Shown piece after piece: positions 37,956 to 39,541 of a stretch of DNA of 64,000 bases. The stretch spans positions 186,001 through 250,000 of the forward strand of contig CAIZZF010000015.1 in assembly GCA_903937385.1 (NCBI GenBank). Reading direction: 5' to 3'. The notes under the pieces were generated by a model. It was not told where the DNA came from. It did no database searches and saw only the letters and a list, made by a program, of their open reading frames with translations. The translations under genes and the position numbers were made by a program. The DNA comes from an uncultured Holophagaceae bacterium. GTDB lineage: Bacteria; Acidobacteriota; Holophagae; Holophagales; Holophagaceae. Positions within the stretch are counted from its first letter, which is position 1; each line of letters opens with the position of its first letter.

Positions 37956-38129
37956 CTGTCCTTACTGCCCAACTGAAATGCAACTAGGCAGCAATTTTCA
38001 CGCATGCAATACCTGGACCATCTATTCCCGAAGGACCTATCTGTAATCCAGTATGCCGAGGCCAGGTGCAGTGGCTCTAGCGATTTTTACCTAGAACATA
38101 AGAGCTCGGCGCCTGGGCCCAGAAAAAAT

Positions 38130-38157
38130 TAAAGGTTTTCGATTCCAAGCCCGAAGA
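38130..38157 (+). promoter_or_regulatory. Sigma-28 promoter of the flagellin genes
   Basis: TAAAGGTT (38130-38137) differs from the -35 consensus TAAAGTTT at one position. After 12 bases comes CCCGAAGA (38150-38157), a five-of-eight match to GCCGATAA. Transcription would start near 38165, giving a leader of about 70 bases. Confidence 0.6.
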
Positions 38158-38191
38158 AGGGATGGTCGGGAGGATTCTCCCCCCGCAACAA

Positions 38192-38209
38192 GGCAGCACG
38201 GATGCTGCC
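38192..38209 (+). promoter_or_regulatory. Leader hairpin of flagellin 1 with a GGA loop (putative CsrA site)
   Basis: A perfect 7-bp stem GGCAGCA/TGCTGCC encloses the loop CGGA. The same CACGGA core recurs at the ribosome site (38220-38225), 23 bases further on. The second flagellin leader repeats the arrangement with a compensated base pair. Another small stem, GGGAG/CTCCC, lies at 38168-38181. GGA in a hairpin loop plus GGA in the SD is the layout of CsrA-repressed flagellin mRNA in Bacillus (family knowledge). Confidence 0.6.
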
Positions 38210-38232
38210 CAACCAACTTCACGGAGGAAGAT

Positions 38233-38832
38233 ATGGTTACCATTCTTAGCAACGTCACCGCTCTGGCCGCCAGTCGCCAATTGGGTGTCAGCAAGATCGG
38301 CTTGACCACAGCCATCACCCGGCTCACCACGGGCCGACGTGTCAACAATGCTATGGACGATGCGGCCAGCCTCACCGCTGGCAACACCGCCCAGGCCGCT
38401 GCCCGTGGCGCCGCTGCATCAGTCGTGACCGATCAGGCTGCCTACTTCAAGGCCCTGAACGCAGACGGCCCGAACCTGCAGAAGACTCAGGACGCCTATC
38501 GCATGGCCGAACTGGAGGGCGGCGGCAATACGGCCACTACGGAATACACCAACCTTGTATCCAGTTTAGGAGCCAGTTCCACCGTTGCCCTTGCGACCAT
38601 CGCGAGCTCTCAGGCCACCAATGGTGCAGCCATGGCCTCCGCGTTGAGCAGTGCGCAGACCCACGGGATCGCGGCTGAGACTGGACAAGGCATCGCCGAC
38701 GCCTACCTGGGGGCAGACATGGGGGAAGAAATGGCGAACTTGACCAAGTATCAGATCCTCATGCAGGCGGGCACCAGTGCCCTGAACAACGCCAACCAGT
38801 CGGCACAGACCGTCATGGGCCTCTTCCGATAG
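38233..38832 (+). CDS. Minimal flagellin, copy 1
   Basis: A 199-residue protein with flagellin ends only. The N-terminal ALAASRQLGVSKIGLTTAITRLTTGRRVNNAMDD aligns with the D0/D1 pattern (S..L..S...L..G.RIN.A.DDAA). The C-terminal MANLTKYQILMQAGTSALNNANQSAQTVMGLFR matches the flagellin C-terminal helix (T..QIL.QA..S.L.QAN...Q.VL.LL). Typical flagellins exceed 250 residues, so D2/D3 and part of D1 are absent. It begins with ATG behind GGAGG and is exported without a signal peptide through the flagellar apparatus. It could instead be a minor filament or hook-associated protein. Confidence 0.8.
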   Translation: MVTILSNVTALAASRQLGVSKIGLTTAITRLTTGRRVNNAMDDAASLTAGNTAQAAARGAAASVVTDQAAYFKALNADGPNLQKTQDAYRMAELEGGGNTATTEYTNLVSSLGASSTVALATIASSQATNGAAMASALSSAQTHGIAAETGQGIADAYLGADMGEEMANLTKYQILMQAGTSALNNANQSAQTVMGLFR

Positions 38833-38852
38833 GATAGTCTTTTTCTCAACCT

Positions 38853-38870
38853 GGTAGCACGGATGCTACC
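38853..38870 (+). promoter_or_regulatory. Leader hairpin of flagellin 2 with a GGA loop (putative CsrA site)
   Basis: A 7-bp stem GGTAGCA/TGCTACC with loop CGGA, in the same position as in the first leader (23 bases between stem end and ATG). The third base pair changed from C-G to T-A on both sides, a compensatory change that keeps the structure. CACGGA also recurs at the SD (38881-38886). Confidence 0.6.
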
Positions 38871-38893
38871 TAACCAGTATCACGGAGGATAGT

Positions 38894-39493
38894 ATGGTTA
38901 CCATTCTTAGCAACGTCACCGCCCTGGCTGCCAGTCGCCAATTGGGTGTCAGCAAGATCGGCTTGACCACAGCCATCACCCGGCTCACCACGGGCCGACG
39001 TGTCAACAATGCCATGGACGATGCGGCCAGCCTCACCGCCGGCAACACCGCCCAGGCTACGGCCCGTGGCGCCGCCGCATCAGTCGTGACCGATCAGGCT
39101 GCCTACTTCAAGGCCCTGAACGCAGATGGCCCAAACCTGCAGAAGACTCAGGACGCCTATCGCATGGCCGAACTCGAGGGCGGCGGCAATACGGCCACCA
39201 CGGAATACACCAACCTTGTATCCAGTTTAGGAGCCAGTTCCACCGTTGCCCTTGCGACCATCGCGAGCTCTCAGGCCACCAATGGTGCAGCCATGGCCTC
39301 CGCGTTGAGCAACGCGCAGACCCACGGGATCGCGGCTGAAACGGGACAAGGCATTGCTGACGCCTACTTGGGCGCAGATATGGGCGCCGAAATGGCGAAC
39401 CTCACCAAGTACCAGATCCTCATGCAGGCGGGCACGAGTGCCCTGAACAACGCCAACCAGTCGGCACAGACCGTCATGGGCCTCTTCCGGTAA
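38894..39493 (+). CDS. Minimal flagellin, copy 2
   Basis: A 199-residue near-duplicate of copy 1. I count three differences: Thr for Ala in QATARG, Asn for Ser in SNAQTH and Ala for Glu in MGAEMAN. The DNA is also almost identical over the coding region and the leader, indicating a recent tandem duplication or ongoing gene conversion. I see no separate promoter between the copies, so they are probably co-transcribed. A strong hairpin follows the stop. Confidence 0.8.
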   Translation: MVTILSNVTALAASRQLGVSKIGLTTAITRLTTGRRVNNAMDDAASLTAGNTAQATARGAAASVVTDQAAYFKALNADGPNLQKTQDAYRMAELEGGGNTATTEYTNLVSSLGASSTVALATIASSQATNGAAMASALSNAQTHGIAAETGQGIADAYLGADMGAEMANLTKYQILMQAGTSALNNANQSAQTVMGLFR

Positions 39494-39508: not shown

Positions 39509-39541
39509 CCGGGAGGGGCAGATTCCATCTGCCCCTCCCGG
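39509..39541 (+). terminator. Strong hairpin after the flagellin pair
   Basis: A perfect 14-bp stem (39509-39522 with 39528-39541) and a five-base loop. The downstream T content is modest, so it may act as a partial terminator or as an mRNA-stabilising 3' end before flaG. Confidence 0.7.

Follow-up and report, generated by a model that had tools for sequence, protein, structure and literature searches.

Why do two tandem flagellin genes of an acidobacterium each carry, directly before the start codon, the same small hairpin with GGA in its loop and a second GGA at the ribosome-binding site? The genes lie in a window of 64,000 nt (the whole stretch of DNA that was analysed) from a Geothrix-like Holophagaceae genome (Acidobacteriota). 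They encode proteins of 98% identity, their coding sequences differ at few positions, and they are followed by flaG and fliD. The features of the locus are collected in Table 1. Both flagellins are very short and consist mostly of the two helical ends; such short proteins are common to several Geothrix relatives, while those of other relatives comprise 270–300 aa. A plasmid collection searched with the locus returned no match.

Table 1. Features of the flagellin locus (positions are those of the window)
Feature	Position	Strand	Remarks
Probable sigma-28-type promoter of flagellin 1, TAAAGGTT-N11-GCCCGAAG	38130..38156	+	consensus match; predicted
5′-proximal hairpin H1 (GGGAGGATTCTCCC)	38168..38181	+	flagellin 1 leader only
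CsrA-type hairpin, flagellin 1 leader	38192..38209	+	stem GGCAGC/GCTGCC, hexaloop ACGGAT
Second CsrA-type site, CACGGAGG	38220..38227	+	overlaps SD of flagellin 1
Flagellin 1, 199 aa	38233..38832	+	Flagellin_N + Flagellin_C domains
CsrA-type hairpin, flagellin 2 leader	38853..38870	+	stem GGTAGC/GCTACC, hexaloop ACGGAT
Second CsrA-type site, CACGGAGG	38881..38888	+	overlaps SD of flagellin 2
Flagellin 2, 199 aa	38894..39493	+	Flagellin_N + Flagellin_C domains
Strong inverted repeat 3′ of flagellin 2	39509..39541	+	from sequence; probable transcript end

The promoter assignment relies on a match to the sigma-28 consensus; TAAAG...CCGAA is found at about −100 in the flagellin leaders of many relatives. 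No sigma-28-like match was seen, by eye or by pattern search, in the 61 nt that separate the flagellin genes, so the second operator is probably internal to a transcript.

In both leaders the hairpin starts 41 nt 5′ of the ATG, that of flagellin 2 being located between the two cistrons, and the loop GGA is separated from the SD GGA by 23 nt. An earlier note on this DNA, made from the sequence alone, had described hairpins at equal distances from the ATG, a third stem pair that is C-G in one leader and T-A in the other, a CACGGA core repeated at the ribosome site 23 bases downstream, and a greater divergence of the remaining leader sequence. All of this is borne out: the repeated core lies on the SD of both genes, and the flanks have diverged while the hairpin and the SD site are kept. 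The 7-bp stem with a CGGA loop proposed in the note needs revision, as the hairpins are present but their functional form is rather a 6-bp stem with a hexaloop ANGGAN, because relatives with ACGGAC or ACGGAA do not keep the innermost A-T pair. The ACGGAT loop thus delimited fits the CsrA/RsmE consensus ANGGAN, which is the loop in NMR structures of RsmE bound to high-affinity RNA (PMC7652899). The hairpin belongs to the predicted fold of each leader; the complete flagellin 2 leader is no more stable than its shuffles (z -0.74), and the small hairpin alone is notable. Reading the hairpin as a terminator or attenuator was rejected, since there is no T-run and the position is just before the SD. 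Rfam gave no family match for 38050-38950, even at E <= 5.

The two leader elements are not a product of chance. Nowhere else in the window (64 kb, both strands) is an ANGGAN hairpin of at least 5 bp closely followed by a CANGGANG site, the chance expectation for this combination being 0.025 per window (40 dinucleotide shuffles), and CANGGAG is present in only 5 of the 52 other SDs. A covariance model that comprises the hairpin plus the ribosome site finds the same two sites in the window, at 60.7 and 56.1 bits, with the next match at 9.6. When the model is applied to the whole genome, it yields three strong sites (56–61 bits), which are those of its three flagellins, and across 396 acidobacterial genomes almost all strong matches other than the training sequences belong to flagellins. 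As to a wider regulon in the same genome, no further CsrA target is claimed, because the hairpin loop of the fourth match (22 bits) lacks GGA and the remainder are weak.

The gene behind this fourth match (G000:C8:254346-254583, minus strand; L190/L290) encodes a small protein of about 53–69 aa (MTSIQGV.../MSSISGL...), which is also met in L191, L192, and L293-L295; the G000 copy has no Pfam match. The SD is CANGGAGG in most copies, a hairpin occupies the position known from the flagellin leaders with a loop mostly devoid of GGA (AAGGAC in L191), and a sigma-28-like CCGATAGA precedes some copies. This may be a flagellar gene of the late class whose leader is a relic, or a variant, of a CsrA target.

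The flagellin leaders of relatives, gathered by protein similarity and not by structure, mostly carry the same element. The Holophagae side is represented by 54 leaders, a few of which belong to different families of the phylum; 47 of the 54 have an ANGGAN hairpin with 4 bp or more, and 50 have a CANGGA ribosome site. The distance between the hairpin-loop site and the ribosome site is about 21–24 nt; in the SD site CANGGAGG, N may be C, T, A, or G, with CA and GGAGG constant. Stems as dissimilar as GACCACT/AGTGGTC, AGTCGCG/CGCGGCT, and TTCCGAC/GTCGGGA all bear an ANGGAN loop. Among 31 distinct hairpins, chosen solely for a GGA that lies 19–27 nt away from the CANGGANG site, standard pairs fill 91% of pair cells versus 67% in shuffles, two-sided changes occur at all seven of the seven stem pairs, and the covariation score is 0.648, as compared with 0.211 for shuffled and at most 0.273 for slid alignments. 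The stem is maintained in related genomes by compensatory changes with the loop GGA kept. The covariation that the earlier note saw in the two paralogues amounts by itself to a single pair and becomes convincing only together with the relatives.

These data bear on two other explanations. Given the near identity of the two flagellins, the likeness of their leaders could be a mere consequence of recent duplication or gene conversion, devoid of function. We give this idea virtually no credence: the flanks have diverged, yet the hairpin, in which one pair is compensated, and the SD site persist, and the relatives already contradict it, the element being found also before flagellins only 32–50% identical and in other families. 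In one relative (G023), each of three tandem flagellins has its own operator. It is also conceivable that the hairpin has a general role in mRNA stability or ribosome standby, that the GGA repeat is an SD-like decoy, and that CsrA is not involved at all; hairpins near the 5′ end are common on abundant mRNAs, of which flagellin mRNA is usually one, and the flagellin 1 leader has a second such hairpin, H1. This explanation is improbable, as the stem changes in a compensated manner around a constant A-N-GGA-N loop, strong occurrences in the genome lie only before flagellins, and the element is missing from the leaders of a flagellated family without csrA (f10, considered below). As for H1, relatives have GGGGG..CCCCC or a similar sequence at its position, mostly with no GGA in the loop; such a 5′ hairpin precedes the GGA hairpin in the leader of the first or only flagellin and is not found in internal cistrons. 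Perhaps its role is 5′-end stabilisation.

Some relatives have more elaborate leaders. Those of L129, L130, L139, and L140 (G046, G050) contain, in addition to the SD site, two GGA-loop hairpins in succession, spaced by about 22 nt, and so have three CsrA-type sites in series. In L118, L120, and L122 (G009, G030, G010), a short ORF lies upstream of a second type of flagellin (MSGSILNN...); its stop codon overlaps the ATG of the flagellin (ATGA), and its SD resembles CANGGAGG. This arrangement suggests translational coupling, and CsrA perhaps acts on the small upstream ORF.

The genome search for csrA and fliW that the earlier note had advised finds both genes, adjacent on contig C16: csrA at G000:C16:27886-28041 (76 bits to PF02599) and fliW directly upstream of it at G000:C16:27491-27847 (118 bits to PF02623). 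Inspection by eye indicates that this CsrA retains R6, V42, H43, and R44, which correspond to RNA-contact positions of E. coli CsrA. Among solved structures, both proteins are closest to their counterparts in the FliW–CsrA complex 5dmb. The two genes co-occur exactly, in the same 32 of 60 relatives' genomes, and Geothrix genomes without flagellin have neither. The leader is present with csrA undetected in a few incomplete genomes (G011, G028, G034; 72–87% complete). It might be argued that the loop is recognised by some other RNA-binding protein or by a pairing sRNA, short loops being possible sRNA targets. However, the loop fits the CsrA/RsmE consensus, two sites 21–24 nt apart suit a dimer with two RNA faces, and the presence of the element follows csrA and fliW; we therefore regard this possibility as very slight, even slighter than that of a stability element.

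The acidobacterial family f10, which has flagellin and lacks csrA, serves as a natural control. In its leaders, the hairpin is found in 0 of 19 and the CANGGA site in 2 of 19, while an SD is present in all 19; in csrA-bearing genomes outside the class, the respective figures are 18 (0.2 hairpins expected from shuffles) and 32 of 39 leaders. The corresponding Fisher p values, 2e-4 for the hairpin and 2e-7 for CANGGA, exaggerate independence because the genomes are kin. The comparison omits four leaders from csrA-undetected genomes that do not belong to f10 (G118, G148, G213, G311); in that of G311, a 6-bp hairpin occurs together with a CATGGAGG site, and csrA is perhaps missing there owing to incomplete assembly. 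Some flagellins of csrA-bearing genomes (e.g., G046_3, G050_3, G042_2) have CANGGA with no hairpin, and outside the class about half of the flagellins in such genomes lack a hairpin of at least 4 bp; therefore, the hairpin is not universal.

Taken together, csrA and fliW, the compensated stem, the constant SD site, and the contrast with f10 strongly support the hag-like interpretation put forward in the earlier note, and neither of the two outcomes that the note had named as contrary to it was encountered. What is found here is what characterises hag/flaA-type control: csrA, fliW, a GGA in an ANGGAN loop, a second GGA that overlaps the SD and is near enough to be bridged, and a flagellin downstream. 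From the conservation of sequence and structure, the covariation, and the co-occurrence with csrA and fliW, all directly observed, we infer CsrA binding, repression, FliW antagonism, and co-transcription. We have little doubt that both leaders are operators with two sites for CsrA and part of a CsrA–FliW–flagellin partner switch like that of hag, where the hairpin and the ribosome site very probably let CsrA restrain flagellin synthesis as long as the flagellum is not ready for it. One face of the CsrA dimer would hold the ANGGAN hexaloop and the other the CANGGAGG ribosome site about 21–24 nt downstream, so that ribosome entry would be blocked when both are bound. As in B. subtilis and C. jejuni, FliW would be held by cytoplasmic flagellin; upon hook completion, flagellin would be exported, and the freed FliW would remove CsrA and allow flagellin translation. 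Since each cistron has its own operator, the second flagellin would be controlled even though it seemingly shares the transcript of the first.

The simplest reading, a two-site operator bridged by one dimer and antagonised by FliW, is modelled on hag and flaA (PMC4894983, PMC7652899, PMC8523840). In B. subtilis, the hag leader likewise has two CsrA sites, the downstream one on the SD, and csrA adjoins fliW. The hag sites BS1 (A51-A55) and BS2 (C75-G82), as cited in a passage of PMC8523840, are by their coordinates about 25 nt apart, which is close to the 21–24 nt seen here. The present sites differ in that they are predicted, belong to another phylum, and give every cistron of a tandem flagellin array an operator of its own. 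The flaA leader of Campylobacter jejuni also contains two ANGGA sites, in a stem-loop and at the ribosome site, with compensatory changes; FliW is the antagonist, and csrA and fliW are absent from non-flagellated relatives (PMC4894983). The present locus resembles it in these respects, with FliW as the predicted antagonist. It differs in that the second site of C. jejuni is also in a stem-loop and that fliW of C. jejuni is not beside csrA, whereas here the two are adjacent.

Acidobacteria have been listed among the phyla that may use FliW (Zere et al. 2015, PMC4682653); the relevant part of that paper gives gene distribution only and names no target leader in Acidobacteria. No description of a CsrA target in Acidobacteria was found in open-access full texts, and a flagellin leader switch of the CsrA type is apparently undescribed in Acidobacteriota. 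Rfam lacks this structure, which is a candidate for addition. It is tempting, though rather speculative, to suppose that CsrA of Acidobacteriota is mainly a flagellin switch, with an operator for each flagellin cistron, including internal ones of polycistronic mRNAs, so that paralogues are separately tunable, with a second GGA hairpin (three sites) in some lineages, and with the site perhaps joined to an upstream small ORF in others. The finding brings the CsrA–FliW flagellin switch, known from Campylobacter and the Firmicutes, into a large phylum that has been little studied, and it offers a specific candidate RNA target. The same phylum holds a natural control, a flagellated csrA-less family without the element, which agrees with the published idea that controlling flagellin may be the more ancient role of CsrA.
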